Shown piece after piece: positions 5,491 through 64,000 of a stretch of 64,000 bases of DNA. Position 1 is the first letter of the stretch. The number at the start of each line of letters is the position of its first letter. The translations under genes and the position numbers were made by a program. Source of the stretch: Sphaerolaimus hirsutus (lineage: Eukaryota; Nematoda; Chromadorea; Monhysterida; Sphaerolaimidae); the NCBI GenBank assembly GCA_964036195.1, contig OZ038460.1, forward strand, positions 313,504-377,503, in the 5' to 3' direction. The notes below the pieces were generated by a model that saw only the letters and a list, made by a program, of their open reading frames with translations, was not told the origin of the DNA and made no database searches.

Positions 5491-5500
5491 ATTCAGGTGC

Positions 5501-9179: not shown

Positions 9180-9320
9180 ATAGCGTTTTCTTGTCGCTTT
9201 CCATTTGTCTTTAAACTTTTCACTTGCCATTTCACTTCCCACTTCAAAATTTACTTCAAAATATCAACATTTTACTTTTAACTTCAAAATTGTTCTTTCT
9301 CCACCCGCGGAAATGGCACC
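9180..9320. repeat. Family O-type fragment
   Basis: Holds repeated CACTT / TTTCACTT words and a CCACCCGCGGAAATGGCACC right end like the family O terminus. No left partner was seen. Confidence 0.35.
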
Positions 9321-11059: not shown

Positions 11060-11266
11060 TTTTTACTTAGATTGGATAAATATGTATATGAAAAACATTG
11101 TCAGGAATTGCCACTTACCAGAATCTGTAAAGTGTAAAATGTCATGAAAAATTCCAGGTAAAAGAAAACTCCGGTATACATTTTACATTTACAGGGCCTG
11201 GGCGTGCCCAGCTGCAACAATATACAGAAATAAAAGACTGGCATTACGCGGACTACCACCAACAAT

Positions 11267-15683: not shown

Positions 15684-15868
15684 TTTCTGCTCACAAAATA
15701 TAGCATACAGAAAAAAATGCCAGCATAAACTGAAAACTTCTTCCCCCCAGGTTGAATTGAACACTGATCTATACTTCGGGAAGGGAAATCGTTTTTTGAT
15801 GTTATTTAGAGCTAAAATGTTATGTAGAGCTAAAATAATCACTCCCTAAAAAGCATGTAATCACTCAC

Positions 15869-18800
15869 ATTTTCCCTCATTTCCTTCTGTCGCCTCACCA
15901 CATCTCCCAAAGACTTCCTCATGCGAAAATTGACCAAACGCTCCCTTCTAATCAAATTCCACATTCCAGCGTCACGCGTCACAATCGGAGAAACTGGCAG
16001 AGTGCCAAAATTGTCGCCAGACTCCTGTTTCGAAGGGGGCCGTTCGTGCGCCAGACAAGTTTGAACATTTGCGTGACAAGCGGCATTGCGTGTGGAGAGT
16101 TCGGTTAATTGCGATTGGTAGTTGCGCTGAGTGATGGGAACGTTTTTTTGGAATGTGAATGCGGGGCTTGAGTGGCTTAGTAGCTGAGCGTGATTTTACA
16201 CTTTATTGGGCTCCCACGCACACTAGTTGACAGTCGTCCAGCTGTCAACTGAAAAATCTGTTCTAGATCGCTTTTTATTAACTTGGGCACAGTTTTTCAG
16301 TTCTCATCGACTTGTGACGGAGGTTAAAGATAAGGCGTTTCCTTTAACTGTAAGTTTTCAAAATCATAACTGTACATTAAAAACGGCATTTGTCCATGTA
16401 AGGAAAATAGAAGCGCGCTTTCAGGGTGGTATGGATGAAATAAGGTTTTCCAATACCCCACTAAAAATGTTTTTGTTTTTTAAATAAAACAGTTTTTTCA
16501 AAAGCAATATAAATGTACAAGCGATCGATCTTCAGTGAACATTATTCACAAATGGGGAGTTTCATTCCAAAAACGCAAATATCCACAATTTACATATTTT
16601 CAAAATCGCATTTTAAAGTTTGGCGATGGCGCGACGGCGCTATGTTTGGGCGACAAAGATTGCCTTGAAATTTTCAGATAGATCTAACATTTCTCTACAA
16701 TTTTTGTATCCACAAATTTTGTTGGCCGGGAAATATTTAGGGAGTTATGTGAGATTTTGTAAATCACCCAAAATTGGAAAAATTGTCTGAAAGTACCTCT
16801 ACCTAAATTTTCAGATCAATATATACACGCATATTTGATTTATAGTGCAAAATAGATTTGGAAATTCACGTATGCATTTTTGGAAATGAAACTTTATTTT
16901 GTATGGGAATTCCGGCCAGCTCTTCACGACCGCTCCGAAGCACGCGTGCATTTTTGGAAATTAAACTATTTTTTGGATATGTGCATTTTCAATATGAAAC
17001 TCAGGCGGTCTGAGATGGATTTATGCATTTTCGATGTGAAAGTCGTGTTTTTCATAGGGGACTGGTCATGGATATGTGAACTTTCGATGTGAAAATTGCA
17101 ATTTTTTTGAAAATCGGTACCACTGTATCTCGGGAACGAAATGGACTATAACGCTGATTTTTTTTCTAAAATGTGAAAAACTATATGTGGAGGTCAAATC
17201 CACGCTTAACTCGATTTTTCTGGATTTGGCGCTTGTAAACTTTTGGAATGGAACTCCCCAAATAGCCTCTGAACCTACCTGAACCTGATTCATGTGATCG
17301 TAACAGGCGACAAGTCGGTCCTGCAGCGGCTTCAAGGCGCGTTCCATTTGGGCGTCTTTGTGCCGCCGCAGCCACGAGTGAGTGGTGCCTGCAATTATTA
17401 GGGAATTGTGGAAGGATCTGTTTATATTTACGTGGTTTGTGTGTTTGGGCCCACACAGATTAGTTGACATGAAAAATTAGTGTCAACTAAATTTTGCTTA
17501 ATAATGTGATTTTAAGTTTAATAAATATGTGATAGAGCATACCGTATTTCCTCGAAATACCCCCCCCTCGTTTGACCCCCCCCCCTCTCGAGACCACTAT
17601 GAAACAATCACCCCCCTCGAAATACCCCCCCCCCCCAGATTGAGTGTAAAGAGAACGTACATGCCAAATACTGCAGTTTGGTTTCTGCGTAGTGCAGAAC
17701 ACACGTTAAAACAATGTCGGAATCACGTTAGAACAGTGTTTATACCATCTACGTACTAATATTAGTCTACATAACCTTATAAATAGCGGTTTTTGTTGTA
17801 TTTTTCGACGTCTGCGTACGTTTCAGACGACAATTTCGTACTGCGATTTAAAAAAATTTCTTGTGAAATAATAACCCCCCCCCCTCGTTCTACCCCCCCC
17901 CCTCTCGAGACCACTATGAAACAATCACCCCCCGGGGGGTATTTCGAGGAAATACGGTAGTTAATTTTATACCGTGTCACTGAAGTTTCATTGTTTCATG
18001 TTAAGTGTGATGCTTCAAAAATTTTTTGTGTTATTTAGTTGACATTCAGTTGACATTTATTTCCGATGTCAACTAGCGTGTGTGTTGGCTCTTTGTCGTG
18101 GTTGGTTTGTGTTTGTGTTTACGGATTTTAATTATTATTCAAGTGTTTCAATTGTTAATGACACTTTTCATGCTATTAGAGTGCTTGGAAATTCTGCTGC
18201 CAATTCCGCAAGTGGACAAGTGACTTGGTCCATGATTATGAATGGTGAAGAATTGGTCCATGATTATGAATTTTGGATGATATGAAAAGCTTATCTACAT
18301 TGCATTGGTAAGTCGATGGACATGGTCAGTTAAAAATTCTGTTGGACACCACAACAACAGCAATAAAAACACACGCGCAAGCTTAACGCACAGTTATCAT
18401 AACCGGCATTGTTCTTCTCTGTTTCTGAAAATATTTACATTTTTACAAAATCGAAACACGTTGGCAGAGGGTCAAATATACCAACATCGAAAATGGGAGA
18501 TGCCATCGCGTAAATGGAAGTAAATTACAACTATCACATCGATTTACAGAAACTTCGTCAGGAATTGACTTTATAAACACTTTGCAAAAACGATACACAC
18601 CCGGGGCCGTAACATGTGATGCAAAATGTCAATAAAAATGAAGGATTTGATTACTAAACTTCTGAATGTTTGCAAGATATTTGACATCTTTCAGGGGTAG
18701 ATAGATAACTGGGGTGTTTTGGGGGGTTATCATCCCCCCCCACTAAACCCCTGATTTTAGTTCTTGGTAGCAGAACAATGTTCGAAAGCAATAACTATTT

Positions 18801-21800
18801 ATCTGAAAAATAATAATTGCAGCACGCAAACTTCAACATGGTTCTTCAAACCGTCAACTAAAATCAGAATAGACATGGAAACCAGTTGACGCCCGGGCCT
18901 GGCGTCAACTAGTTCGCGTAGCACCTACAAACACACATCAAAGCTGACCGATAAAATGTCCGATGCCCAAGCCGATAACGGCGGCGGCGGCGACCAGCGC
19001 CAGCAAAGTGAGCAACCAGTTGAGGCGGTTGTTGAACTCGTGCGTGTAGTTGACGCGCTCCCGGTGGTGAGTGCTGCGAGTTTGTGAATTGAAATTGAGT
19101 TCACATAAAATGGAGGATAAATACGGCGAGATTTTTCAAAATCAAACAATTGATGCATTATGAGGGATCTCCCGTAGGTTGAGATCAGACTTTCAATTGT
19201 TCGAGCTTTTCCACCTTTCCTTTAATTTATCCGAGAAAAAAACCACTTCTTCCAATCATACCACGGCAAAACCACTCAGCAAAACGTACCTAGCCACGAA
19301 ATTAACAGGGAGGTCCTCATTAAAATCCTCCCTTTCAGCTGCATCCGAATCCGCAGCCGGCGCCCAAGAACCATCCGTACTGGGCGCTTCGATTTGGCTG
19401 GCTGCCAGGTGGTTTGATATTTACTATTGAGTGAGAAAGGGAGCGGTACCGGAACAAGCGGGTTGGAATTAGATCGATATTTGTACTTTTACGATTTCAA
19501 AATTGAGACGTGCACGTCTAAAACCCCAAGCTCCAAAAAATTTAGTTAAGCACATTCGGGAACGGCATCTAGGATCGCTTCCGCAAGTTTGAAATACAAA
19601 TCGCATCTTTGAACCGTTTTGTGAACGATTAAAAGAAACCCTAAACCCCAAATTTTTGACCAAAATCGCGAAGCAGAAAAGCCAATAACGTTTGAACCCC
19701 ATCCCAGTTGACATCGATGTAATCGTCAACTAGTGTGAAGAGCCTAAGAGTCACCACTCCCAATTAAAGTCGCCTACAAACGAAAAAAGCCTTCCTCACC
19801 CAAAGCATCCAGTAGCCTGGCGACGCGATGCGGGTCAACTTTATACTTGCACCTCGCGTCGGCGCAGCCAATCAGCGACAAGTTCTCTTCCAGGGGACGC
19901 GCGCACCCGCCGCACCCGCCCACGGAAGATCGCTGCTATGGGAAAAACTTATGTTGCGGTTCATGGGGACATAAGTTTCATCAATAGTCTAGGCGTTACT
20001 CACGATCCAAAAACGGGCGTCCAATTTAGGATTATATCAGGGGTCTCCAATGAGGGGTTGGGGTAACCCCCCCCCCCGCCAAACCGCCCAGCTATCTATC
20101 TATCCCGGAAGCTGCTCAGCTATTTGTCTACCCCGAAAGCAAAATTTTTGGCAACTACTCCATGAACCCACCCTCCAAAATTGGCCAGCTATCTACCATC
20201 TGGAACGATTTTTGAGGCATTTTACCCCAAAAAAATTTCAGGTAAATATCTGTACGACCAGGGGCATATCAAGGATTTTTGAGCGGGGGGGGGGCTGCTT
20301 GTTTACGGAGGCCGGCGAACGCCCCCCCCCCCTAAGATTTTAGTTACAGAAAAACCCTGAAAAACAATCCGATCCCGATCCCGGTCCCGAGAAGTCAATC
20401 CCATTTGAACGATATCACAAGGTGGTGGAAAAGTGACAATTACGTGTTCGCATGAATAACTTGTGAACAAGTGGAGCTATCGCAGCCATATTTTCAGGGA
20501 TCCTTTCCTATTTAGTTGTTAATGTCGACCTAAAATTTGACGTTAATCCGACCACCCAGTGACAAGTTATTCAAAACTTTATGGGGTCCGCCTAAATTGC
20601 CGCACCCTGTACAACGCGCATTAGTTACCGCTGAAATTTCCAAGACTGGTAGATAGCTTTGAAATGCTTATGAGTTGGGGTCTTGTAAATAGATTTCGAT
20701 CCCTGCATATAAATAGGTAGTAGATACAGTGTTCATATAGATTGTAAAGTGCTCATTCGGAGAGGGGAGGTATACATTTCTTTTGGGGGTGGTGGTCTGG
20801 CTGACATTTTTTACAGATTTCATTTTTCTATTTTTTGAGAATCTATTTTTGTGTGAATTCACTATATATTTTACAACTGTTATGCGCGCACTTTCTTCAC
20901 ATACAATTTACCTTGAAAACCTGTGCAAAATGCAAATCATCGATATATAAACATAAATATTGAGCGATTTTCACTTGCAAATTAGCAAAAACAGGAAAAA
21001 ATCAGCGATTTTGATTTAAGCTATTCAAAATGTGTTAGATGGGCGAATAGCTAGCCGAGGTGTCAGTAGCCATAAATTTTCCCTCTGGACAGATATATAC
21101 ATAGCTGAACAGTTGACAGCCCATACTAAACCAAACCCGCTAACTCAATCCTTCAAAACAACCGTCAACTAAAAAACCTGATTATCATTGGGCGAGTGTT
21201 GTCCAACGGGGCTCTGTTCCACGCAGCCAGGGGTGGATATGGACAAATGCGCGTACTCGCTCGAAGAACCTCCCGAACTGGAATCTCTGAAAATAGGAAT
21301 GTAGTGCTGTGGAAATGGTTGGATGGTAGACAGGGGGCTGGATAGATAGCCAATCGCTCCCCCTGAGGGATAGATACTTGAAAAAAATTTCTGGCGGGTG
21401 CAGGGACGTAGCCACGATTTTTGAGCGGGGGGCTGTATACGAAGCCCGGCGAACGCCCCCCCCCCAAAAAAAAAAAAATTTGGCGCCCGGGTTAAAGAAA
21501 TAGCGCCTTGGCGCCAGCGCCATTCGTAGGCGCCACGCCATGGCGCCATTGGCGTTGGCATTGGCGACAAACACAGCTGTACATGTATGTATTTTTCATA
21601 GATTTACAGCGACGGGGACTTATTTTGAGTGCTTTTTTGGTCCTAAACGACATTAATGAAGAAAATGAACTGTGCGGCGTCGAAATGCTCGTTTGCGCGC
21701 AAGATTTTTTTTGAAGTGCCAACAAAATCGCTTTACGGAAGTGCTATTTCTGACATATCGTTTGTCCGACCTGGGAAGGGGGCGGCTGCCCCCCCCCTGG

Positions 21801-23808
21801 TTACGTCCTTGGGGGGGGGGGGGGCTTGGAGGTGGCTTGCGGATGGTCGCGGGAGCAAAATATATAGGCTTTTTCAAGGTGTAGAATGCCAAAAATGGGG
21901 ACAAATCGCCAAAATGGGTAGGAAATAGCCAAAATAGGTTAAAAATATAACTATGTACATGGTCCGGCTGAAAAGTCCCCGGGCAGTGCTCGCCATTCGC
22001 GCTAGGGGTAAGCTGCTGTCATAACATTTTGGCAGGTGAAAATATCAGGTGTTTTGAGTTTTGAGTTTTCACCCAAAATTACACCCCTTTAGCTCCACCC
22101 ACTGCGGAACTGTGGGGGTTACAATTTCGGTCATTTTGTACATGATGTACAAAATGACCGAAATTGTAACCCGCACAGTTCCGCAGTGGGTGGAGCTAGA
22201 GGGGTGAAATTTTGGGTGAAAACTCAAAACACCTGATATATTAACGTGTTAAAATTTTATAACCGTAGCTTACCCCTAGCGTGAATGGCGAGCACTGCCC
22301 GGGGACTTTTCAGCCCGACCATGTACATAGCCGAAAATAGCAATTTTGAAACTAAAAATTAGGGAAACGTTTTTTGGTGAAATTTACAGAAAAATCACTC
22401 AAAATTTGCTCCACGTAGCAGGATAGATAGCCAAAATATTTGCCTAAGGGTACATAGATATATATAACAAAATTGCAGACCTGCGGCAGCGACTAGTGCT
22501 CGTTGTGCCCGTTTCAGCTACAGCAGCAGACGGGGCCAATTGACTCTGCAGGGAGAGAGCCCACCTTGTACATGGTCCGGCTGAAAAGTCCCCGGGCAGT
22601 GCTCGCCATTCGCGCTAGGGGTAAGCTGCTGTCATAACATTTTGGCAGGTGAAAATATCAGGTGTTTTGAGTTCTCACCTAAAATTTCACCCCTCTAGCT
22701 CCACCCACTGAGGAACTGTGGGGGTTACAATTTCGGTCAATTTGTACCGATGTACAAATGGTGCTCTAGCTCAATGATGCTATAAGTTGTGATGATGAAA
22801 CTTTGGCTAGTGTAAGCCAACCGGTTTTTTTGACGATGTGCTGATAGTATTCAACACTTTCATATTTACACATTATTGCTTGAGGTAAAAATAATATGCA
22901 AATCAGGGTGATGTGCAAGAAACGTGGGAACTGTGGTGGATGTTTTTGGTGATCATCTGGAATCATGTTGTAATGCAGTGATTTTAATGTGGTTTTGTAA
23001 TGTGCAGTAAATGAATTATGTGGATAAAATTTCCCTATGTTTCATTGCTAATGTGTAGTGGACACATTACCGTGTTCAACAGCAGTGAGTAGACTCCAAG
23101 GGGGGCTATTTTGAGAAGGAGAGGCAGAATGATAATTTGGTTAGAGAGAGTAGTGACAGGTATGACAATATGGACTAGGCTTATGCTATCATAGCTAATG
23201 TTGGTTAGTGCTGGCACATTGCCAACACTGGTGGCTTATACTAGCCAAAATTTCATGATCACAACTTAAAGAAGCGTTGAGCTAGAGCACCATTTGTACA
23301 TCAGTACAAAATGATCGAAATTGTAACCCCCACAGTTCCCCAGTGGGTGGAGCTAGAGGGGTGAAATTTTGGGTGGAAACTCAAAACACCTGATATCTTA
23401 ACCTGTCAAAATTGTATGACTGTAGCTTACCCCTAGCGCGAATGGCGAGCACTGCCCGGGGACTTTTCAGCCGGACTATGTATAAAACAATTAACTTTAC
23501 GTTTCGGTGTTTTGACAAAAGCTTTCGATTTGTTGCGAGTTCGTTTTCCTCCCCAGAGTTTCCCATCAAACAACCACAACCCCCCCCCCCCATCACACAA
23601 CAACCACAACTCTCCCCCATCACACAACATCAAAAACACCCAACCCCCCCCACCCAACCGGACAATCACACAAGCCAGCATCATCAGCCATCTCCACCTC
23701 CCCATTGGTATTCAGCACGGTCCAGCCCCTGCCCGTTGTGTCGCCGCTCGCCGAGCTGCTCAACGAATTGCGTCGACTCGTTTTCTCCTTTTCCGGTTTT
23801 TGGGACAT
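15869..23808 (-). CDS. CCPG1-like gene, duplicated 3'-truncated copy 1
   Basis: Eight exons, minus strand: 23808-23672 (start ATG), 22543-22481, 21286-21178, 19932-19800, 19401-19290, 19073-18949, 17388-17279, 16126-15869. All borders are GT/AG and phases agree (2,2,0,1,2,1,0,0), giving 349 codons without a stop. They encode the LIR-type GWTVL segment, the Cys motif, the acidic segment, the membrane span and the first lumenal coiled-coil exons. The eight downstream exons of copy 2 are absent. Exon sequences differ from copy 2 by a few mostly conservative changes (e.g. Thr/Ala at residue 10, Ile/Val-class change in the span), so this copy is not obviously decayed. Without a new 3' exon the frame runs into the intron for nine codons and stops. 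It lies downstream of copy 2 in the same orientation. Confidence 0.7.
16554..17259. mobile_element. Family D element, 706 bp, 4-bp target duplication AAAT
   Basis: Starts GGGGAGTTTCATTCCAAAA and ends TTTTGGAATGGAACTCCCC. Flanked by AAAT on both sides (16550-16553, 17260-17263). The paralogous position near 39320 lacks it. The interior has tandem GGAAATGAAAC-like words. The right end lies 19 bp from the start of exon 17388-17279. Confidence 0.85.
17449..18090. repeat. Family K element with a nested family A MITE
   Basis: Ends CACACAGATTAGTTGACA and TGTCAACTAGCGTGTGTG. The uninterrupted paralogue is at 42059-42270. The family A MITE at 17540-17959 accounts for the length difference. Confidence 0.75.
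17540..17959. mobile_element. Family A MITE, 420 bp, with paralogous empty site
   Basis: Ends TACCGTATTTCCTCGAAATA and the inverse. The paralogue at 42141-42160 reads GATAGAGCATAGTTAATTT with a single TA at 42151-42152. The insertion therefore duplicated TA, as Tc1/mariner-type elements do. It is closely related to the copy at 61921-62373. Confidence 0.9.
20037..20345. repeat. Family C left-end fragment
   Basis: Starts CAGGGGTCTCCAATGAGG, with GCTATCTATC words; truncated on the right. It is also present at 44858 in copy 2, so it predates the duplication. Confidence 0.6.
21402..21960. repeat. Transposon end fragments in copy 1 intron
   Basis: Includes a CAGGGACGTAGCCACGATTT end (also at 48461), a GGCGCC-rich patch, and a reversed family C-type end near 21800. 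Part of it (about 21772-22345) is missing from copy 2. Confidence 0.45.
21967..22321. mobile_element. Family L palindromic element
   Basis: Left arm reads CATGGTCCGGCTGAAAAGTC near 21959 and the right arm is its inverse ending near 22322. The centre is TGTACATGATGTACA at about 22137. The element is one long imperfect hairpin flanked by TA. Copy 2 of the gene lacks it. Confidence 0.7.
22571..23480. mobile_element. Family L element, 910 bp, shared by both gene copies
   Basis: Ends CATGGTCCGGCTGAAAAG and CTTTTCAGCCGGACTATG, flanked by TA. A second inverted repeat (GGTGCTCTAGCTCAA and its inverse) lies inside at about 22758-23300. The paralogue is 49032-49917, so insertion preceded the duplication. 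Confidence 0.75.
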
Positions 23809-24156
23809 TTTTGGGATTTTTAAGTGTTTTTTGGGGCCTGAAATTTGGGTGGGTATGAGATTGTATTGTGGTGTGATGATTGTAGCATGCGATTTACAGA
23901 TAATTTTACCGTGTTTTGGTGAATTAAGTCACTTGAATGAATGCGAGACAAATTCATGGATGGATGTGGTGATGTGGTGGTGATCAATGTGATGGAGTAA
24001 AAACCCCATTTTAATGGTTAATTTAGATGGTATAATGTAGGTTGAATGTACTCTGCGGACAATCGAGTTGTGACACGTCGTCCGTGACGCAAGAACACGT
24101 TGCCGGCAACGTGGGCAAATGATTTGTCAGCATTCGTTTACTAATTGGCTTAGGTC

Positions 24157-24755
24157 TAGGGTGTCAAATTTCTGTTTTCCGTTTCCGTTTTTCGCAGGCA
24201 AATTTTTTCCGTTTTCCGTTCCGTTTTCCGGCCACTGAAATTTTTTTCCCGTTTTCCGTTCCGTTTTCCGGCCACTATTTTTTCCGTTTCCGTTTTTCCG
24301 GCTCATTTTCCGTTTTCTGGTTAAAATTTCAGTTTTTCTGCCTTTTTTCTGTTTTCCGGCTCAATTTCCAGTTTTTCCACCTTTTTTCCGTTTTTTGCCT
24401 CAATTTTCTGCTTTCCGCATCATTTTACCCTTTTCTGGCTCAACTTTCAGTTTTCTGTTCCAGCCAAACTGGTAAACAGTCATGCAGATTGTCAATTATG
24501 TGGAAAAAAAATTTTATGCGAAAAATGCGAATTTTATCTTTTTTTTGGCAAAATTTCAGCAAATTTTTCCATTTCCATGCAAATTCCATTTTTCCGTTTC
24601 CGTTTTTCCGGCCCCTTTTTCCGTTTTCCGGCCACTGAAATTTTTTTTCCGTTTCCGTTTTCCGCCAAGTGCAAATTTTTTTCCGTTTTCCGGCTGCTGA
24701 AATTTTTTTTCTGTTTCCGTTTCAGTTTTCCGTAAAAATTTTTTTTGACACCCTA
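24157..24755. mobile_element. Family H hAT-like element, TTTCCG words, perfect TSD
   Basis: Ends TAGGGTGTCAAA and TTTGACACCCTA. Both flanks are CTTAGGTC (24149-24156, 24756-24763). The paralogous empty site at 50393-50400 has one CTTAGGTC. The interior consists largely of TTTCCG / GTTTTCCGG words on one strand. No transposase. Confidence 0.9.
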
Positions 24756-27700
24756 CTTAGGTCCAAGTGACACTCGTACCTCCTTCCAGAGATTGAGCGC
24801 GTCACCAAAACACTCAGACAATTTATTTTACATTTTACAGAATTTTACATTTACGGGGCCTGGGCGTGCCCCGGGAGCTGCAACAATATCCAGAAATGCA
24901 TGACTGGCATTACGCCGACTGCCACCAACAATGAACCGATGTAGGCCCGCTTGGCATGTAATCGTTCAACTAGGTATCTACAATCGATGTGAGGCAAACG
25001 TTGAGCGATTCTTCTGTAATTTTTCCTCAAAATCGCTATAGGTATTTGCTATCTATCCAGCCCCCGTGAGGGTCAAAACCTTGGAAACCCCTGATTCGAT
25101 TTTTATATGCCGAACGGGTCTACATTCCAAGCGGCACAGAGCCCAATGAACCATGGGACAATCCGCCCACGAATTGTTTTTTTAATGTCAAGAGTATTTA
25201 TCAAATGTCATGCAAAATTTCACGCCAACTCCTCAAGCGTCATCCAAAATGGAGGACAAATTTTTTGCATAAAAGTTGACAGAAATTTGCAGAATCTGCT
25301 GATTCTCGCGGCTGCCATGAAAATCGACTGGGTGGAATCGAACCCTGATATTTAATGAACATTTCAACAAAAAAAAACAACAATATTTGAAATTGTAAAT
25401 ATGTACACGTTCATTTGTAATTTCTTGACTAGCGCCCAAATAAACTAAACCAGCAAATATCGTATGGGTACAGTGTGATCATTGAAATTGGAACAGTAGA
25501 TTTTTCACAGCTTTTTAAAATAGACAAAACCACGATAAATGTACGAGTATTCTAGGTGAATATTTTGTTTTATTAAAAACAATGACGAAAACAATTTTAA
25601 AATGCACATCATGTGCCACTCCCAGAACCAGCGAAATGGCAAATGTCATGAAAGTGTCAAAAGTCGTGAAAAGGTCATGAAAAATGTGAAGGACCGGTGA
25701 AACAAATGAATATTTTAACATTTCCTAACATTATTATTGGCACTTTGCATGACATTCAACATTTTACAGGGTCTGGCAGTGGCCCCATATCATCACCAGA
25801 AGCCAATTCCGCAACTGACAAGAAAAGTGGTAAAGTACATCCATACATAAAATAATCCATAAATGACAAGTCAAGTAACTATCAAGTAAAGTTTGACATT
25901 TTATTTATACATTTACTCATCACAAGTTTACCTGTCACTTGATTTACCACTTACCACTTTTTGTCACTTTTCCACTCGCGGAATTGATCCCCAGTTGTCA
26001 GATTTTATGCGCCAAAGCTAAGGGCTAAAAAATTCATAAAACACACAGTATCGAGAAAAGCTCAAGTCTTAAAAAACCGCGGTGAAATGAAAAAAAGTTT
26101 ATAAAAAAGTATTTACAGCCAGCCTAATGAAAGTAATCGGCTTAAAATAAAAAATTCAAACGAAATCTCACACTCCAGGAAAGAACAGTCCTAAAACACC
26201 ACTAATGAAACTAAAGTAAAGTACCATCCGGAAAGTAAATACGTGCAATTTCCAACGCTAGTGCATTTCCAGCACTAATAACGATGTTGCAGGGAAAAAA
26301 GCCACATGAAAATTATAGAAACACGATAAAACTACTGGAGTAAAAGCTAAAGCTGATTATTTACAAGGTCATAAAAACAAAATAAAAAAATACGGAAATT
26401 CATGATTTGATAGAATTGAAGACAATACTGTATAGACGAAAAAAAGGGGATTTACGTAATTATTAAATTAAAAATAGCCTATACAAGTGATGTAAATCTA
26501 GCTTTTGGCGCCATTCACCAATGACACCACTGGCGCTTGGCGCCATGTCAATTTCCAGTTTTTCCACCTTTTTTCCGTTTTTTTGCCTCAATTTTCTGCT
26601 TTCCGCATCATTTTACCCTTTTCTGGCTCAACTTTCAGTTTTCTGTTCCAGCCAAACTGGTAAACAGTCATGCAGATTGTCAATTATGTGGGGAAAAAAA
26701 TTTATGCGAAAAATGCGAATTTTATCGTTTTTTTGGCAAAATTTCAGCAAATTTTTCCATTTCCATGCAAATTCCATTTTTCCGTTTCCGTTTTTCCGGC
26801 CCCTTTTTCCGTTTTCCGGCCACTGAAATTTTTTTTCCGTTTCCGTTTTCCGCCAAGTGCAAATTTTTTTCCGTTTTCCGGCTGCTGAAATTTTTTTTCT
26901 GTTTCCGTTTCAGTTTTCCGTAAAAATTTTTTTTGACACCCTACTTAGGTCCAAGTGACACTCGTACCTCCTTCCAGAGATTGAGCGCGTCACCAAAACA
27001 CTCAGACAATTTATTTTACATTTTACAGAATTTTACATTTACGGGGCCTGGGCGTGCCCCGGGAGCTGCAACAATATCCAGAAATGCATGACTGGCATTA
27101 CGCCGACTGCCACCAACAATGAACCGATGTAGGCCCGCTTGGCATGTAATCGTTCAACTAGGTATCTACAATCGATGTGAGGCAAACGTTGAGCGATTCT
27201 TCTGTAATTTTTCCTCAAAATCGCTATAGGTATTTGCTATCTATCCAGCCCCCGTGAGGGTCAAAACCTTGGAAACCCCTGATTCGATTTTTATATGCCG
27301 AACGGGTCTACATTCCAAGCGGCACAGAGCCCAATGAACCATGGGACAATCCGCCCACGAATTGTTTTTTTAATGTCAAGAGTATTTATCAAATGTCATG
27401 CAAAATTTCACGCCAACTCCTCAAGCGTCATCCAAAATGGAGGACAAATTTTTTGCATAAAAGTTGACAGAAATTTGCAGAATCTGCTGATTCTCGCGGC
27501 TGCCATGAAAATCGACTGGGTGGAATCGAACCCTGATATTTAATGAACATTTCAACAAAAAAAAACAACAATATTTGAAATTGTAAATATGTACACGTTC
27601 ATTTGTAATTTCTTGACTAGCGCCCGAATAAACTAAACCAGCAAATATCGTATGGGTACAGTGTGATCATTGAAATTGGAACAGTAGATTTTTCACAGCT

Positions 27701-28736
27701 TTTTAAAATAGACAAAACCACGATAAATGTACGAGTATTCTAGGTGAATATTTTGTTTTATTAAAAACAATGACGAAAACAATTTTAAAATGCACATCAT
27801 GTGCCACTCCCAGAACCAGCGAAATGGCAAATGTCACGAAAGTGTCAAAAGTCGTGAAAAGGTCATGAAAAATGTGAAGGACCGGTGAAACAAATGAATA
27901 TTTTAACATTTCCTAACATTATTATTGGCACTTTGCATGACATTCAACATTTTACAGGGTCTGGCAGTGGCCCCATATCATCACCAGAAGCCAATTCCGC
28001 AACTGACAAGAAAAGTGGTAAAGTACATCCATACATAAAATAATCCATAAATGACAAGTCAAGTAACTATCAAGTAAAGTTTGACGTTTTATTTATACAT
28101 TTACTCATCACAAGTTTACCTGTCACTTGATTTACCACTTACCACTTTTTGTCACTTTTCCACTCGCGGAATTGATCCCCAGTTGTCAGATTTTATGCGC
28201 CAAAGCTAAGGGCTAAAAAATTCATAAAACACACAGTATCGAGAAAAGCTCAAGTCTTAAAAAACCGCGGTGAAATGAAAAAAAGTTTATAAAAAAGTAT
28301 TTACAGCCAGCCTAATGAAAGTAATCGGCTTAAAATAAAAAATTCAAACGAAATCTCACACTCCAGGAAAGAGCAGTCCTCAAACACCACTAATGAAACT
28401 AAAGTAAAGTACCATCCGGAAAGTAAATACGTGCAATTTCCAACGCTAGTGCATTTCCAGCACCAATAACGATGTTGCAGGGGAAAAAGCCACGTGAAAA
28501 TTATAGAAAGACGATAAAACTACTGGAGTAAAAGCTAAAGCTGATTATTTACAAGGTCATAAAAACAAAATAAAAAAATACGGACATTCATGATTTGATA
28601 GAATTGAAGACAATACTGTATAGACGAAAAAAAGGGGATTTACGTAATTATTAAATTAAAAATAGCCTATACAAGTGATGTGAATCTAGCTTTTGGCGCC
28701 ATTCACCAATGACACCACTGGCGCTTGGCGCCATGT
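24361..28736. repeat. Tandem duplication, unit 2188 bp, two copies
   Basis: 24361-26548 and 26549-28736 are nearly identical with a constant offset of 2188 bp. The unit includes the right part of the family H element, so duplication followed that insertion. The unit also contains a B-box-like GGTTCGATTCC (minus strand, about 25340) without an A box, and a family O element at about 25806-25985. Confidence 0.95.
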
Positions 28737-28739
28737 AAA

Positions 28740-29097
28740 TACCGTAAATCCTCGAATATGTCCCCCCTCTTGTGAGTGAGGAAAAAATACCCCCCCCCCC
28801 TCGAATAACTCCCCCCACTATGATGGGTAGAAAACATTTCACATTTACAAAAAACGTTTTATGTATTTAATATGTAAATATATGTATTATCTAACATCAA
28901 TTTCGCTGCCTGAATTGTGAATTTTGTATTCCTACAAACGATTTATGTCACCAAATTTATCCCTTTTGTGCAGTAAAGTAATCATACATTTTATTGAAAA
29001 TTCTAATGAAAAAATAACTCCCCCTCAAATAACTCCCCCTCAAAAACTTCTGACGAAAAATTAACTCCCCGGGGGACTTATTCGAGGATATACGGTA
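28740..29097. repeat. Family A variant MITE, 358 bp
   Basis: Ends TACCGTAAATCCTCGAATA and TTATTCGAGGATATACGGTA. C-rich left and G-rich right subterminal runs. It lies just past the last exon of the CCPG1-like gene. Confidence 0.75.
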
Positions 29098-29427
29098 TAT
29101 GGAAATATGTCGGTTTTTACATCACCAATGTCATTCTATAAAGAAGATCAGTTAAATTCAACCTAGAAGCTATGGCCGGTAATTTTATCGAATATTACTG
29201 GTTTTAATACACGCCATTCAAAAAAACTTTTCTATTAAAAACACACACAATTGAATCGCCTTTTTTCCACTGTATAAGAGCTAAATATTTATGTACAAAA
29301 ATATGTGGATGCAACTAGGTATTTAATTACTCGCATAGGAACACTTCACACTTAACACTAAATACTACGTAGCACAAAGATTATGAACAATACACAAAAG
29401 TGTATAAATTTGTACAATCGGTGGAAC

Positions 29428-32400
29428 TTAGAAGCACGGTGGCGGGGTAATTTCGCGACTGAAGCTCCGCCCACATGAAATTTCATCCCAGTCACTCATA
29501 TCGTCATCTGTGATGTTTAAGTGTCAAGTTGTTTTTTACGATCCATTCATATGCCGACTTAAAAGTGTTCAAGTGACAAGAAAAGTTGTAAAGCATTTTC
29601 AAGCAAAGTAAGTTAAGTTGTAACTGGCAAGCATTTTCATACAAATGTACTCTTCGCTTAACGTTTACTTGCCAGATGACATATTTACACTGAAAACTGC
29701 CATAATGCGTCTACGCACACTAGTTTTCAACGGAAATTTCGACAGTCAACTAGTTTTCGAACCAAACAAACCAGAATCATCATCCGAAAGGTCCTTCCAT
29801 CCAACATTTTTCTCTCCGCCCCCACTTTTCCTCGATTTACCCTTGGCTTTTAGTTTCCCTTTATACCCTTTTAAAGTTCCCTTTTCATTTTCGGGATTTT
29901 TGCCCTGCACCCGCCGCAATTCATTTCGACCTTTGGAACGGAGCCAATGCCAATCAGCTAGGGTAGATTTTTGTCTTTGTGCCTTTCGCTCTTCTGCTCG
30001 TCTGTGGGGATTGGCGAGAGGTTTTGAGACAACTTTTTCACGGAGAATTTTTCTTGCATTTCTTTGTTACATATTGATGCTTTTAATCTAAAAAAGTTTT
30101 TACACAACTATTGACAAAAAAATCGACAGAAAGATGCTTGCAAATATAGACTCAACAACTTTGCAAATTTTTTCAGCGATTTTGCAATCAATTTTGCGAT
30201 TTCAGACGCAAATATCTCACCGGCGAGGGCTCCGTGTGCATCTAAACTAGGTGCCCATGTAGACCCGGTGCCCATCTAGCGCTAACCAAGTGACTATGTA
30301 GACTCGGTGCGCATGTAAGGCCGTCAGATGGGCACCGGGTAACATGCGCACTGAGTTTACATGGGCACCAGGTTGTAGCGCTACATGTGCACCGGGCGGG
30401 AATCGTGGATGACATTGTACCAATGTAGCAAAAACGTATTTACGTTAACTCTAAATACCTGGGTATTTGGGTATTTATACTTACGTTGACGTTTTCCAAA
30501 AATACCTTTACATTTTGTTACGTTTTCCTGGCAAAATTACCCGGATAAATCGTAAAAAATAAGTTAGGTACATATGTTAAAAAACATGTTACCCCAACCT
30601 TGGATTATTACTTATAATATCAGAGCACTTCTCGAATAAATAAATACATTTTAGTATTTAAACTTGAAATTTGGAAAAAGGTATTTACGTTTACGTTTTC
30701 CAAAAATACCAGTATTTTAACAAAACTGCATTGTACTCGTACATGGGAATGGTGCACATGTAGACCCCATGCATATAAACCCGGTGCCCATGTAGACCGG
30801 TGCCCATCTAGCGCTAACCAAGTGACTATGTAGACTCGGTGCGCATGTAAGGCCGTCAGATGGGCACCGGGTAACATGCGCACTGAGTTTACATGGGCAC
30901 CAGGTTGTAGCGCTACATGTGCACCGGGCGGGAATCGTGGATGACATTGTACCAATGTAGCAAAAACGTATTTACGTTAACTCTAAATACCTGGGTATTT
31001 GGGTATTTATACTTACGTTGACGTTTTCCAAAAATACCTTTACATTTTGTTACGTTTTCCTGGCAAAATTACCCGGATAAATCGTAAAAAATAAGTTAGG
31101 TACATATGTTAAAAAACATGTTACCCCAACCTTGGATTATTACTTATAATATCAGAGCACTTCTCGAATAAATAAATACATTTTAGTATTTAAACTTGAA
31201 ATTTGGAAAAAGGTATTTACGTTTACGTTTTCCAAAAATACCAGTATTTTAACAAAACTGCATTGTACTCGTACATGGGAATGGTGCACATGTAGACCCC
31301 ATGCATATAAACCCGGTGCCCATGTAGACCGGTGCGCATGTACAGTTGAATCACATGCGCACCGGGTCTACATGGGCACCGGATAGAAATACATGGGCAC
31401 TGAGCCTACCTGCGCACCGAGTTTACATGCGCACCGGTAGGGTTCAAACGATATATCGTATCGAATATCGAATATCGGATATCGACCATTTTTTAATATC
31501 GAATATCGAATATCGATATCGAAAATTTTGAAAAAATATCGAATATCGAATATCGATATCGAAAATTTTGAAAAAATATTGAATATCGATATCGAATATC
31601 GACCATTTTTTCGATATATCGAACCTATATTGTGTCCCAAAAACAAGTTATCATTTTCATTTTGAGATATTCATGATTGATCTGATGTGCTTGATCTGAT
31701 CTGAGAATTGTATTAGATGAGTAAAAGTACAGTACTTATAATGTCATTTTTGTTGGAGTGCTAAATTTGAAGCCAGAAAATGCTGATATTCTATTTTTTG
31801 CAACATGCCCTTAGCAATCAGGTTATCAGTATAAACTAATATCTACCAATTGTTATTTGTCTGATACACATTCATTCATCATGTTTTTTTCTACATGTTC
31901 TACTTTTGAGTGATGTAAACCTTGTTAATATCACTTGTACCATTCACATTTAACTAAAGAGATGATTAACCATGCGTGCAACCACATGAAAATACAATCT
32001 GTCACTTGAAATATGCCTTGCTATACCAAAAGCAAATCGCAATATCGAATATCGAAAATATCGAAATATCGAATATCGAATATCGACCATTTTTTAATAT
32101 CGAATCTCGAATATCGATATCGAGGTTCCATATCGTATCGATATCGAATATCGAGTTTCAGAAAAAAATATCGAATATCGAATATCGATATCGAAAAGTC
32201 ATATCGTTTGAACCCTACGCACCGGCACAGACCCATCTCACCTCTCACTCCATTCCTTCCCATTTGGCACAGAACTTCCGCCAGTCCCTTCACAAGCGAC
32301 ATCTTCCCCACTACAGTAACCCTCATCAGGCACGCTACCGTAACCCTCAACACCCCCATGCAAAACCCTGTGGACATTCGTATTTGTGCGCACAAATAGG

Positions 32401-53764: not shown

Positions 53765-54235
53765 CATAGTTGTTCAAACTTATTTAAATACTTTTACTCG
53801 ATAAATACGTATAGGTACTCTAGTACAGAGTAAATACGTTTACGTTTCCTCTGAAAAAATTATCTGCACTCGCCTTTACGAATACTTTTTGAAAGTACTC
53901 GAGACAGAAAACGTATTTCAGGTTGTCTTTTATATTGATTTCTAAAGGCATAGGAGATAAAAAAGGGATAAAGCATGCTAAAAATGGGGGAAAATAATCG
54001 AAAATGGCTATGTGATCACGTATATAGCTAAAATTGTTTAAAATAGGCAAAACGTTATTAAAATTTTTAATTTTGGGATAAATAGGGGTGACATTTCGCT
54101 GGTGAAAAGTAAGTTTACTCATGAGTAAAAGAAAAAAATTGACTTTACATTTTCTGTACTCAGGGGGTGTGTAAAAAATGAATACTTTACGTTTACATAT
54201 ACTTAGAAAAATGTTCAATACTTTTAACAACTCTA
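53765..54235. repeat. Family E-related element, TTTACG words
   Basis: Left CATAGTTGTTCAAACTTATT, right ACTTTTAACAACTCT. Words AAATACGTTTACG and TACTC throughout. No matching 8-bp flanks, so the ends may be damaged. Confidence 0.5.
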
Positions 54236-54477
54236 CTTCCTCCTTTGAGGTGCACTTCCAAAAACCGTCCGAACTCACGACTCTAAATTCGAATGTGCGG
54301 CGCGTCAATGAATAATTCATCGGGCATAGATACCGTATGACCTCGAATTATCCCCCCTTTAAATACCCCCCTCGTATTAACCCCACTCAAAATGGGCTGG
54401 TGAAGTAATATCCCCTCGAAATACCCCCCTCCGGCCTAATATACATCATGCATGCAATGTACATGATGTATTTATTG

Positions 54478-55290
54478 CAGAGTTGCGAAAGCGTATTTAC
54501 GCTTACCCGAAATACCCGGGTAAATGGGTATTTATACTTACGCTTACGCTTACGCTTTCATAAAATACCTGTACGCTTTTTTACGCTTTCCCGGCCAAAA
54601 TACCCGGGTACTAAAAGCGTAAAAAAGCTTTTCACATGGTTCAGTTTTACAGTTTTGAAAAAGCATAAAACCACAAAAAAGAGTGAACGAAACTGCGTAC
54701 AAAAAAATTACTGCGTGCGTGCAGTAATGTGCTGGAAATAGTGGCACATTTACAAATTGTGTCGCAGTACGAATGTCTTGCTAATACTGTGTCGTCAAGC
54801 AAAATCGTGGCTTCAGATAAGAAATTTTGGGCTGAAAATGGATTCCGACGACGATGTTGTCGCCGTCGACAGCGCCAACTCCAAGTTGGAAGATAAAAAG
54901 ATGACTTACCGTGTTTCTTCTAATAGAACGGCAGCCTCCAATAGAACGGCACCTCCCATAGAACGGCAGGCAAATAAAGTTGACGAAAGAATTGAACGGT
55001 GCTCTTCTATTAGAAGAAATACGGTAAGTGCCGCTGCAGATGAATTGCCAAACAACATATGAGGGCAGACTACTAAGTGGACATCTGAAAAATGTCGCTG
55101 AGAGCTTGATTTGGAAAGAATTCACTGAGAAAACGTCTCTTAAAAAATTTTTTACGCTTACGCTTTTATTTACGCTTTCCCAGGTATTTAAAAAATACCT
55201 TACGCTTTAAGTATCCATACTGAAAATTTGGAAAGTGTATTTACGCTTACGCTTACGCTTTCCAAATATACCGGTATTTTAACAACTCTG
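54478..55290. mobile_element. Family E hAT-like element, ACGCTT-word form, perfect TSD
   Basis: Ends CAGAGTTGCGAAAGCG and TTTTAACAACTCTG. Perfect 8-bp flanks ATTTATTG (54470-54477, 55291-55298). About fifteen ACGCTT/AAGCGT words stand where the family member at 11386 has ACGTTT/AAACGT. A short acidic frame (MDSDDDVVAVDSANSKLED, from 54839) may be a transposase N-terminal remnant. A 120-bp MITE sits inside at 54907-55026. Confidence 0.9.
54907..55026. repeat. 120-bp MITE, TACCGTGTTTCTTCTAATAG ends
   Basis: Left TACCGTGTTTCTTCTAATAG, right CTATTAGAAGAAATACGGTA, with AGAACGGC words inside. TA at both edges. Nested in the family E element; related to family A at the outermost bases. Confidence 0.75.
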
Positions 55291-55322
55291 ATTTATTGCT
55301 GCTAATTTGTATCGCAGCTACA

Positions 55323-57167: not shown

Positions 57168-57334
57168 CAGTCCCAGACCCTGTAAAATGTCAAATGTCAT
57201 GCAAAGTGTCAAAAGTCATAGAAATGCCCTGCAAAATGGCAACCGAGTTGCCATTTTGCAGGGCATTTTCCAGGACTTTTGACATTTTGCATGACATTTT
57301 ACATTTTACAGGGTATTTTACAGGGTCTGGGACT
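57168..57334. repeat. Family B foldback MITE
   Basis: Ends CAGTCCCAGACCCTGTAAAA and TTTTACAGGGTCTGGGACT. Centre GGCAACCGAGTTGCC. Right arm has a duplicated TTTTACAGGGT. Confidence 0.75.
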
Positions 57335-58241
57335 ACCCCCTGTACTATGTATAAAAATGATGCTCTCACGGTCCCATCTTTGCAATAACACAGATTCAAG
57401 CATCAAAACAATTACCGTAAACCCTGGATTAGTTCCCCCTTGAAACGTTCTCCTTTTCAACCCCAGTGAGGAATAGAAACCCGCCTCGAATAATTCCCCC
57501 ATTTTGATGGGGGGGGGGATAAATGCTGAGCATATTTTAAGAACAGTCAATGAATGTCTAGGTTTGTAGGTTTTGACAGGTTTCTGTCAATTTTCTGTAT
57601 TTACTTTTTTATGCTTTTTCAGTCGCTTTTAAAACTATCGAGAAGGTGCTTGAGTTGAATTCCAGCAAATTGCCATAATTTTTTTCCCAATGTAATACTG
57701 TTCATACCTACAATGAATTGACAAAAAAAAATATTTGAAAACACCGACATAACAATGGTAAAAAAATAAACAATTGCCCTGTTTGATTAGCCCCCCCCCC
57801 CACCCCCAAAAAGTGTGGCCAAAAACAATTCCCCAGTGAGAACTATTCTAGAATTTATGGTAGTCAAACACATTTCAGTTATTCAATACACAAGTAAAAT
57901 TTTGGGCATTTCCGACCAAGTAAACGTCGATTTTCCACCAACGATTCCATGCACAAATAAATTATTTTTGCACGCCTAGAAACTTTCCATCCGTGCACAT
58001 GCATACGGAGGCATGTGAACTTTGCTGTCCGACTGACAAACACAATAAATACACTTTCTTGTATGTGTTATGCTGCACTTAGCAACAGGCAGGGTTTTAT
58101 ATTTATAGTACGATTACGTAGGCAGAATGTTTTTTTTTATTTGTCATTGTCTTGCTATTATGATTTGTTGTCATTTTTTGTCGAGAAAAAATTACTTCAT
58201 CCGACAAAGCTGACATTGAATTTTTTGTCGCCGCAGAAACG

Positions 58242-58275
58242 ATAAAAACGGTGCGGCGAGCTATTCCATCAGATT
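58242..58275 (+). promoter_or_regulatory. Candidate core promoter of the secreted-protein gene
   Basis: A TATA-like ATAAAAA at 58242-58248 lies 29 bp before an initiator-like TCAGAT (A at 58271), followed by a short leader to the ATG at 58294. The spacing suits TATA plus Inr, but the alternative is a UTR exon after the acceptor-like CCGCAG at 58231-58236. Confidence 0.35.
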
Positions 58276-58293
58276 ATAACCTACACTACAACC

Positions 58294-59566
58294 ATGGTGA
58301 GTTTCTTTTTATGGCAAATTTATGGCTTTTTGACGAGACCTAAAAGGCACCATGAAACCAGAAGGGTGCCATAGCACCTGGCAACACCCCATTGAATACC
58401 GGTGGACGTTTTGAGTTTTTCAACCGATCAATTTCTGTCAACAGATTACATTAGGCATCTTATTGGCAGCCAGTAAACAGTATACTGCCAGTAAACTTTT
58501 ATACACCCATTAATCAACTTTGAATGGCATTTGAGTTTACTGGAATTAGGTGTCCGTCAAGTAAAATTGACCGAGAGTAAAAATGGGTCTCATTCCAGTA
58601 AACTCAAATGCGTTCAAGGCTGATACATCAGTTTACTAAATTTCCATAGTGTGCAGCGACATTGAATTCAAAACTCCCCTCCCCCCGCAGCTGCGTCTAG
58701 CCACCGTTCTAATCCTGATTCCTTTGGCACTGTGCCATCCACACGACGACGCTGGCAGCGGGCCAGGATGTCCCCACAGCAACATCAGGGATGCCATTGA
58801 TGAGGTGAGTATGTTTTTCTATTGATTTTGGGTGATTTGTGCACGTGGAAGGATGTCAAATGTGTGTGTTGGATGTATTGTGATGGTGCGTTGCGAATGC
58901 AGTGGTAAGGATGGTACGGTGAAGAGGAAGTGCAAAAATTGCACTGTCGTTGGTGGGAATCGAACCTGTGGCGATGACGCGCGGGCTCCTTAACTGCTCG
59001 ACTACAGTCTAGCTGGGCTCTAGTAACTTTTAGGGGTTGTTAAGCTGAGGCTGAATTGTCTAAACTTTAGTTGCAGCAAAAACGCCCGCGTACATAAGAC
59101 ACCCTTGTGTGCTTTCAAAGCGCACCATATGAACGTCACGCACCCTCTAATGTGTAAATTAAGGTGTCAAATGTCATGCAAAGTGTCATACAAATGTGTC
59201 AAATGTCACGCAAAATGTCCAAACTTCAGTAATAAAAACGTTCTTTATTATTTTAAATGACACTGCATGGTATTTGATAATATTGTCAACACTTTGCAGG
59301 GTGCGGGACTGCCACCATATCACCACTCAACCCCCAGTTGACAAAAAATTCTAAATAAAACCCCATTTAACCCCCCACAGGCAGTGCAGTCAACCCCCGA
59401 TGACCTGTTAGCAATTGCCAAGTCCGTTCAAGCGGCTGGGGAATCCGGGGGTGAAAAATGGGAAGTAGTCTGTGCCTACTGTGAATTCGGGTATGCGAAC
59501 TGGTATACGAACAAGATTTGCCAACACGAATCCAATGGAGTGTATTGCACCGCGTGGCAGGATTGA
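58294..59566 (+). CDS. Small secreted Cys-containing protein, three exons
   Basis: Exons 58294-58296 (ATG only, followed by GTGAGT), 58691-58804 and 59381-59566; GT/AG borders and phase 0 at both joins. The product is 100 residues. Residues 2-16 (LRLATVLILIPLALC) form a signal peptide with likely cleavage near CHPHDD. The mature part has a CPHSN cysteine, then CAYC, ICQ and YCT, five cysteines in all, with Trp/Tyr-rich WEVVCAYCEFGYANWY. The Ala/Ser/Asp-rich middle could be helical. I do not recognise the family; the size and cysteines suggest an extracellular or effector-type protein. Intron 2 holds a tRNA-like SINE and a family B MITE. Confidence 0.75.
58927..59012 (-). repeat. tRNA-like SINE copy with hairpin tail
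   Basis: On the minus strand: A-box-like TGTAGTCGAGCAGTTAAGG, B-box GGTTCGATTCC, then the hairpin GTGCAATTTTTGCAC. Same layout as 60764-60855. The acceptor arms do not pair, so it is not a working tRNA gene. Confidence 0.6.
59159..59313. repeat. Family B MITE, degraded
   Basis: TGTCAAATGTCATGCAAAGT on the left and CACTTTGCAGGGTGCGGGACT on the right. Inside intron 2 of the secreted-protein gene. Confidence 0.5.
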
Positions 59567-61698: not shown

Positions 61699-62644
61699 CA
61701 TAGTTGTTAAAACGTATTTACGTTTACTAGATAAATATGATACTCGAGTACTGCATAAATACGTCTTCATTTCCTCCCGAAAAAATGCGGTACTCACTTA
61801 CTCGCGTACTTTTTGAAAGTACGAGAGTTCAGAAAACGTATTCCAAACAGGCTTTTTAATTGTTTTTTCAAGGCATAAATGAAAAAGAGAGATAAAAGCA
61901 GAAAATGGGGGCAAAATATCTACCGTATTTCCTCGAAATACCCCCCCCCTTGAAATACCCCCCCTCGTTTGACCCCCCCCCCTCTCGAGACCACTATGAA
62001 ACAATCACCCCCCCCTTGAAATACCCCCCCCCCAAATTGAGTGTAAACAGAACGTACATGACAAATACTGCAGTTTGTGTTCTGCGTAGTGCAGAACACA
62101 CGTTAAAACAATGTCGGAATCATGTTAGAACAGTGTTTATACCATCTACGTACTAATATTAGTCTACAGAACCTTATAAATGGCGGTTTTTGTTGCATTT
62201 TTCGACGTCTGCGTACGTTTCAGACGACAATTTCGTACTTGGTATTCAAAAATTTTCTTGTGAAATAATAACCCCCCCCCCTCGAAATACCCCCCCCTCG
62301 TTTAACCCCCCCCCCCTCTCGGGACCACTATGAAACAATCACCCCCCGGGGGGTATTTCGAGGAAATACGGTAAAATAGCATAAAAATAACCAGGAACAC
62401 ATCAACTACTCAATTTGATGATTAAAAAGCTCGAAAATTAGTGATTTATAACGAAAATTGGGGTAAAATTTCTCAAAAATGCCCGCTTTTACGTCTTCTG
62501 GGGACAAAAGTAATTTACTCACGTTTACTCATGAGTAAAAGTTAAAAATACATACTTTATGTTTTCTGTACTCACCTGTGAGTAAATTATAAGTACTTTA
62601 CGTTTAGGTACTTTCAGAAAAAATTCAGTACTTTTACAACTCTG
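61699..62644. mobile_element. Family E element with perfect TSD, hosting a family A MITE
   Basis: Ends CATAGTTGTTAAAACG and TTTTACAACTCTG. Perfect 8-bp flanks CTTCAGAC (61691-61698, 62645-62652). The family A MITE at 61921-62373 is inside. Confidence 0.85.
61921..62373. mobile_element. Family A MITE, 453 bp
   Basis: Ends TACCGTATTTCCTCGAAATA and the inverse. Core shared with 17540-17959 (AACGTACATG, GTTCTGCGTAGTGCAGAAC). Nested in family E. Confidence 0.9.
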
Positions 62645-64000
62645 CTTCAGACTCCTGCCACCAATTCATATAAATAACCGCAACTTCAAAACTCCATTTC
62701 TTGACCATTTCTTAGCCGATTTAGCATGATCAGAATAACCTGGAGATAACATTTTTATTCTCAGGTTATTTGTTTTGAGGTTTTAAGGAGCTTTTGAGGT
62801 GCATGCATTGTTATTTATGTGATTTTTTACCGTATATCCTTGAATAATACCCCAGGGGAGTTATTATTCCATCAGAAGTTTTGGTGGGGAGTTATTGAAG
62901 GTGGTCACTTTCAACGTGGGAGTTATTGATTCTCTAGAACGTTCAGGAAAACTGTAACCAGCTTTTTTGACCCCCTTATCTCGGATCGGACCCCCTTCTG
63001 TTTTTTTCATCTGATAAGTATGTATTTATTGGGAAAATATCCGATGTTTGTCACTTTCTATCTGTCATAATGTCACTTTCTATGTCCCCTTAAAATACGT
63101 TTTCGGTACTGCTTTCGGTCGTGCTTTCATAAAGTACGCGAGTAAATGGGTCCCGGTATCTTTTCGGGAGGAAACGTAAACGTATACGTATTTATCGAGT
63201 AAACGTAAATACGTTTTAACAACTATGATTTAAAGGCACCCGGCAAATTTTTCAGTAAACACTTTCGGCATTGGCGCGGTGTGGCGCTGGCGCCAGGTCC
63301 ATTCACAGTAACTTTATGTGTTTGGTTTGGCGCTGGCATGAAGTGAGTTGGCGGCAGTTTTGGCGTGTTGGCGCCAAATCGGCAAGCGCCATGGCACGTT
63401 AGGCGCCATACCTTCGTAGAGTTTTAACGTGTTTGGGGTTGCTAAGAATTGGTTTTAGGTAGTGATTGTCGCAAATGATTTGAATCCCTAGATATTTAAA
63501 TCGTAGCTATTATATTTACATTATAGCTCTTGTAAAAGCTACATTTTTTCTAAATACTTCACATTCAAATGAGTCGACGCCACAGTCTACAGATGTTGAT
63601 TACTTCGAATACTTATTAACCGGTTTCCAATTTCAGCCAAATGTCGAAATGGCGTGTACGGTTCCATGGGAAATCAAGTAAAAATTCTGTGTAAAACAAT
63701 ATGCACCGGTGTGTGATGATTACTACTGGGCGCGCGTGATTGGCAGTAATTGATTGAATATTGATAAAACAAAAGCCGAAAAAGTTCGCTCGAACAGTGA
63801 AAATTACGCCAAAAATCGATTGATTTATCCACTTTAATCAACATGGTATGTCGGTTTTGTATATTTTTAATTTAAATAATTTTCATCAAATTTTATAATT
63901 CCATTTAATGTCGTTCAACTTAATAAAGTGATTTCATTAAAATACTCGAATTTTGCGATCGATCTAAACCTATCAAATCCATTGAACACAGCAAAAGCTC
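62645..64000. other. Repeat remnants; no supported gene
   Basis: Holds a solo family A end (62829), a family E right-end fragment (about 63090-63230) and a GGCGCC-word patch (63260-63420). The window ends without a clear exon; see the ATG-donor candidate at 63843. Confidence 0.4.
63843..63845 (+). other. Possible ATG-only first exon at a splice donor
   Basis: TCAACATG is followed directly by GTATGT, the same layout as the start of the gene at 58294. A TATA-like GATAAAAC lies about 75 bp upstream. The second exon would be outside the window. Confidence 0.2.

Follow-up and report, generated by a model that had tools for sequence, protein, structure and literature searches.

It is already known that subterminal words are read by a transposase and that transposon subfamilies may differ in part in how their ends are recognised. 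The transposase of maize Ac binds repeated AAACGG hexamers cooperatively; three copies are reported as needed for transposition, and some Ds1 elements move without AAACGG (PMC3260210). In Herves, a mosquito hAT element, the transposase cannot do without a single short subterminal motif (CG/AATTCAT) for binding, and this motif is also enough (PMC3143072). The Hermes BED finger recognises AAG(T/C) with a helix that enters the major groove, and its adaptable residue pair N67/R70 changes conformation between two related sites; high-affinity binding requires an AT-rich stretch after AAGT, and when the putative BED sites of the left end were mutated, transposition in cells was not dramatically lower (PMC10368747). 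In Tol2, the tip is directly followed by AAGTACTT (PMC10368747). Outside these elements, the THAP finger of the G type of Galileo showed weak binding to K ends and none to N ends, both from the same species, and significant binding to the ends of the Drosophila ananassae element (PMC3688188). Here, we report two hAT-type elements, E1 and E2, from one window (the whole stretch of DNA analysed, 64,000 nucleotides), between which a repeated subterminal word differs by the same single base at 15 of 15 shared sites. So complete and clean a change, with phasing and a second word intact, is unusual.

E1 (11386 to 12164, plus strand, 779 bp) and E2 (54478 to 55290, plus strand, 813 bp) are sister non-autonomous (MITE-like) hAT-type elements with an 8-bp TSD, terminal inverted repeats and subterminal words. 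E2 is flanked by ATTTATTG at 54470 to 54477 and again at 55291 to 55298 (8/8), and E1 by CCTGTGGC and CCTGAGGC (7/8, one mismatch). In both, the terminal inverted repeats CAGAGTTG and CAACTCTG are perfect across 8 bp, boundaries that fit the hAT-like label given to the element by a first-pass annotation. Non-autonomy follows from length, both elements being too short for a typical hAT transposase (600 to 800 residues; PMC4890040); one interior open reading frame of each (87 codons in E1, 106 in E2) matched no Pfam family.

The first-pass annotation had located both copies and the word substitution correctly, but had them aligning end to end, which they do not. Homology is limited to the ends (left, about 156 bp; right, about 147 bp), and the interiors differ in 257 of 451 aligned columns. 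The sole interior similarity found between E1 and E2 covers about 100 bp at about 71% identity; it is a hairpin-like stretch (54904 to 55029 in E2, 11928 to 12019 in E1), which may be a small nested element or what is left of a common interior. Left and right ends of the elements are directly similar to each other.

Short words are repeated subterminally at both ends of E1 and E2, as in the hAT superfamily. The left word array of E2 (54489 to 54620, plus strand) carries AAGCGT at 54489 (-), 54499, 54540, 54546, 54552, 54573, 54583 and 54615 (-), and its right array (55154 to 55260, plus strand) carries the same word, written ACGCTT, at 55154, 55160, 55172, 55202, 55243, 55249 and 55255. E1 has the AAACGT (ACGTTT) spelling, at 11397 (-), 11407, 11448, 11454, 11460, 11481, 11491, 11526 (-) and 11534 (-) in the left array (11397 to 11539, plus strand) and at 12029, 12035, 12047, 12077, 12117, 12123 and 12129 in the right array (12029 to 12134, plus strand). 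The E1 ends thus hold 16 AAACGT and no AAGCGT (2.7 AAACGT expected over 200 shuffles), and the E2 ends hold 15 AAGCGT and no AAACGT (0.7 AAGCGT expected). ACGCTT occurs 22 times in the whole window, counting both strands, and 15 of these lie inside E2. The earlier statement that no ACGTTT was left in the word arrays of E2 holds; one AAACGT does stand inside the element but outside the arrays, at 55131 to 55136, 17 bases ahead of the right array and without a counterpart in E1. An additional AAACGT lies in the E1 interior at 11884.

When the ends were aligned (16 word columns), every shared word site read AAACGT in E1 and AAGCGT in E2 (15/15, against about fifteen claimed at first pass), and the sixteenth word (E1 11534) was gone in E2 through two other changes. 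At the other five positions of the word, 2 of 80 bases had changed, both within that lost word. On the plus strand, the switch comprises 13 T>C and 2 A>G changes, matching 13 words in one orientation and 2 in the opposite one, and it affects both termini, as had been noticed. Word phasing was kept: 10 words lie at identical distances from the tip in E1 and E2, and the other 5 have moved by 1 to 3 bp. A second class of word (word 2: AAATAC or AAATACC, TACCCGGGTA and surroundings) differs between E1 and E2 at 4 of 76 positions, and the remainder of the ends at 25 of 128, so that the sequence between the words is indeed much less changed than the switched base. Fisher's exact test gave p = 6e-9 for the 15 of 16 switched columns against the remainder of the ends, and p = 1e-12 when every non-variable position of the ends was taken for comparison (284, of which 31 differ). 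The words are otherwise better conserved than the spacers (6/156 versus 25/128 changed, p = 3e-5). Leaving out the switched base, 7 of the 188 A/T positions in the E1 ends show an A>G or T>C change. All 11 AAATAC sites kept their third base (2 of the 11 lost the word through different changes), and three of three other AAAY sites also lack the third-base change. The switch is limited to the AAACGT class, and word 2 is independent of word 1. Because word 2 stayed conserved yet did not follow word 1 in E2, the two words are probably read separately.

The direction of the change was assessed with relatives in the window. The window holds a third family E element, E3 (30421 to 30728, plus strand, 308 bp, decayed), with an 8/8 TSD (CATTGTAC, 30413 to 30420 and 30729 to 30736), five AAACGT and no AAGCGT. 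A second copy of E3 (30953 to 31260, plus strand) arose when a 532-bp unit was duplicated in tandem (copies 99% identical); E3 was counted once, since this copy was duplicated together with its surroundings and is no independent insertion. The duplication spans 30237 to 31342, carries E3 and lies among short CATGTAG-type repeats.

Three more distant relatives have a left end of the same kind as E. F1 (61699 to 62644, plus strand) is a Tol2-like relative with an 8/8 TSD (CTTCAGAC), the AAACGT spelling and AAGTAC at 6 of 9 word-2 sites. F2 (53765 to 54235, plus strand) is a decayed relative of F1, also with AAACGT; a TSD was looked for, and the 8-mers at its two flanks differ. G (63080 to 63227, minus strand) is the left end of a further relative with AAACGT, whose second end was not found in the window. 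AAACGT counts are 5, 4 and 5 for F1, F2 and G (one end), with no AAGCGT in any of them. F1 also contains a nested C-rich insert (CCGTATTTCCTCGAAATACCCCC..., 61948 to 62373), of which a 90% identical copy lies at 17550 to 17959, with weaker relatives elsewhere in the window. A fourth candidate with inverted tips and a TSD (57243 to 58522; CCGAGTTG and CAACTTTG, TSD 7/8) has no word cluster and was rejected as a chance occurrence.

E3 carries a letter at 11 of the switched sites, the E1 base at 10 of them and a third, different base at the other, and shows a gap at 4 further sites. With the switched positions excluded, changes unique to one copy number 13 in E2, 10 in E1 and 23 in E3, and distances outside the words are nearly star-like (E1-E2, 0.148; E1-E3, 0.173; E2-E3, 0.191), so that assignment of the change to a branch leans on F and G too. 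Since E3, F1, F2 and G all have AAACGT, parsimony places the origin of AAGCGT on the E2 branch; the AAGCGT spelling, known from one copy (E2), looks derived in the E2 lineage, and the E2 spelling as ancestral state was rejected on account of those four relatives. Copies with random mixtures of the two words had been named as evidence that would speak against the pattern: among the ends of the six elements (one end for G), AAACGT and AAGCGT never occur together.

F1, F2 and G have some AAGTAC and TACTCG words in place of the AAATAC and TACCCG of family E (AAATAC versus AAGTAC, 3 versus 6 in F1, 4 versus 1 in F2 and 3 versus 1 in G). It is possible that the difference in word 2 between E and F is a second, partial word switch, which we regard as a lead and not as a second proof.

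Compared with the described systems, E1 and E2 share with maize Ac/Ds the AAAC-type hexamers within the terminal 200 bp, the 8-bp TSD and the pattern of shared ends with unrelated filler seen in Ds (PMC3260210). They differ in the word itself, which is AAACGT or AAGCGT and not AAACGG, and by this subterminal hexamer they do not belong to Ac/Ds; no wholesale respelling among Ds classes is described in the available part of that source (PMC3260210). The likeness to Herves would be the reliance on one short subterminal motif; its motif is not the E word, and the portion of the report at hand mentions no respelling (PMC3143072). With Hermes, the ends have in common short AARY sites, present in both orientations near the tips, a rigid phasing at the left end and, putatively, reading by the helix of a finger (PMC10368747). 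In contrast to Hermes, the third base in E1 is A and not G, AAGC is followed by GT in E2 where Hermes has an AT-rich stretch after AAGT, and no second conserved word is described for Hermes in the accessible text (PMC10368747).

The closest match to Tol2 and Tgf2 is in F1, whose right tip equals the printed left end of Tgf2 (taken from PMC4890040) at 17 of 18 bases and whose AAGTAC word also occurs in the printed ends of Tgf2 and Tol2. Among the 11 ends compared with the Tgf2 tip, F1 right had z 6.6 and the other F and G ends z 2.8 to 5.5, whereas those of E1 and E2 matched at 11 to 14 of 18 bases (z 0.9 to 2.9), with the words AAATAC and AAACGT or AAGCGT; the E3 ends had z 0.2 and 1.6, and the ungapped tip counts of E3 right and F2 right, two ends cut out of register, were left out.

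We propose that E1 and E2 would represent two non-autonomous subfamilies of one hAT lineage, possibly Tol2-like. Each of their ends would be a series of sites that a transposase from another locus binds through its N-terminal BED zinc finger; for E2, membership of a subfamily is suggested by one AAGCGT copy. AAACGT or AAGCGT would be the site of this finger, and word 2 (AAATAC, often in the palindrome TACCCGGGTA) a second element, read separately. The transposase of the E2 lineage may have shifted its preference from AAAC to AAGC, with G in place of A as the third base. With many phased sites acting jointly, copies with matching sites would have been mobilised better until all sites had switched, and intermediate copies would have died out or escaped sampling. 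We give a probability of about 0.72 to this reading, in which the E2 subfamily was served by a transposase whose finger prefers G at the third base and the sites followed. In this reading, the reader would be a BED finger, its specificity would have changed, and the sites would have followed singly under selection.

The first-pass annotation had offered two readings, a matched change in a transposase and all its sites or a process that homogenises dispersed words. The former fits best, given the constrained words, the kept phasing, the switch of one word class only and a site resembling AAG(T/C). It is the third position of an AARY site that switched, and we read each word as AARY followed by a tail: AAAC-GT for E1, AAGC-GT in E2, AAAT-AC for word 2 of E and AAGT-AC in F1. 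The apparent fit of the E words to the Hermes site is such a reading and not a result. The third base is also where word 2 of E departs from AAGTAC, the form seen in F1 and in the printed Tgf2 end; F2 and G are mixed. Several points speak against a matched change. The frames scanned yielded no transposase and the collections searched no further copy, AAGCGT is known from one copy, and no intermediate copy shows the path; a few sites may suffice for transposition, if the Ac/Ds1 and Hermes precedents apply; the AT-rich stretch that Hermes needs for high-affinity binding is replaced by GT after AAGC; and the G-type THAP finger of Galileo bound the D. ananassae ends, which suggests that specificity need not diverge between relatives.

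The main rival is that E-type ends adapted to an existing, AAGCGT-reading transposase of another hAT family. Non-autonomous elements use enzymes in trans, and the word pattern predicted is identical; word 2, spacing and tips are nonetheless shared by E1 and E2, which is simplest if the recognition machinery belongs to one lineage. This argument is not decisive; we consider such a capture unlikely. We hold it to be quite improbable that dispersed words were homogenised within the element, independently of a transposase, by slippage in tandem runs or very short conversion tracts. Tandem runs do hold 3 of the left words and 5 of the right words, where slippage could act, and the direct similarity of left and right ends also speaks for this reading. 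When the runs are counted once, however, 10 clusters remain, in both orientations and at both ends. Moreover, the 10-base flanks of the words are 81% alike at corresponding sites of E1 and E2 but 41% alike among different sites within an element (for the 7 non-tandem sites, 76% versus 38% and 40%). Array-wide conversion was rejected on this ground, and since neighbours were not copied along, conversion tracts would have to be about word length. An active rewriting of dispersed words to a common spelling, with tracts no longer than the word and the sites evolving as a unit and not through selection on each point in turn, is to our minds just as improbable.

Context-specific mutation or deamination would account for one and the same transition throughout, but we give it very little credence. 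The switched base lies outside CpG, and all 14 other AAAY sites (11 AAATAC and 3 others) are unchanged at that base. As for deamination, just 7 of 96 C/G positions of E2 (switched base excluded) are T/A in E1, and the other elements of the window set the direction as A to G. The copies have also diverged outside the words (25/128 in the remainder of the ends), as ordinary neutral divergence of old copies would have it, but the chance that this produced the switch is minimal: with tandem runs counted once, 10 of 10 clusters switched has p of about 5e-15 at the transition rate of 7/188 and p = 8e-8 even at 0.195 (any change in the remainder of the ends), which bears out the earlier remark that independent mutation is hard to credit. 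Chance is contradicted by these counts, and deamination or context mutation by the untouched AAATAC sites.

How a DNA-binding protein that acts at many sites changes its specificity without failing midway is an old question. E1 and E2 form a natural before-and-after pair for it, in which spacing and word 2 were kept, one base was switched and relatives give the direction. Should the host genome yield both transposases, one could read off directly which residue changed, in what order the sites switched and whether intermediates exist; the untouched word 2 predicts a second, independent reader of E ends. The dialects of the DNA uptake sequence in Neisseriaceae offer an analogy, in that a small change is common to dispersed copies of a word and tied to a receptor, although they are bacterial, genome-wide and linked to transformation, and do not lie inside a transposon. 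Among the matches listed in our literature searches (hAT words and transposase-site coevolution, with thin coverage of subscription journals), there was no report of a wholesale one-base word switch.

No Pfam transposase was found in all six frames of about 30697 to 64000, the minus frames of 1 to 13700 and 15700 to 30698, one of the three plus frames of 1 to 14997 and 15700 to 30696, and the minority of frames covered in the repeat at 13.7 to 15.7 kb. The scan was run in 5000-residue pieces, at lower sensitivity (zf-C4 weakened from 1e-5 to 0.002). Word-pattern scans returned 16, 5, 10 and 0 stretches from viral contigs and 33 from genome contigs. BLAST of E1, E2, E3, F1 and F2 against the 64 pattern-scan loci (E <= 1e-3) gave six rows (L025 and L042), and 13 loci inspected by eye were simple repeats or isolated words, none taken as a relative. 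In blastn searches, E2 had no match in phages and E1 none in plasmids. Neither Rfam nor the tRNA scan gave a match in the window. A repeat-family search of the whole window returned at least 60 families, of which the best 20 all corresponded to a microsatellite near 14 kb.

The window also contains an imperfect CTT/GTT trinucleotide repeat of about 2 kb (13716 to 15730, plus strand), with several frames open and an AT skew of -0.81 for 14001 to 16000. A repeated sequence lies at 24537 to 25539 and 26725 to 27727 (spacing, 2188 bp), detected as paired BLAST matches and word clusters. The window is eukaryotic, and two protein matches make a nematode the likely host. At the left edge of the window, positions 1 to 57 (minus strand) encode the first part of a C4 zinc finger of the nuclear-receptor type, and a long translated stretch matches the Ground-like domain at about 59345 to 59557 (plus strand; E = 9e-8, 33.1 bits versus a cut-off of 35.4). 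The nuclear-receptor zinc finger is an animal family, and Ground-like is a nematode family.
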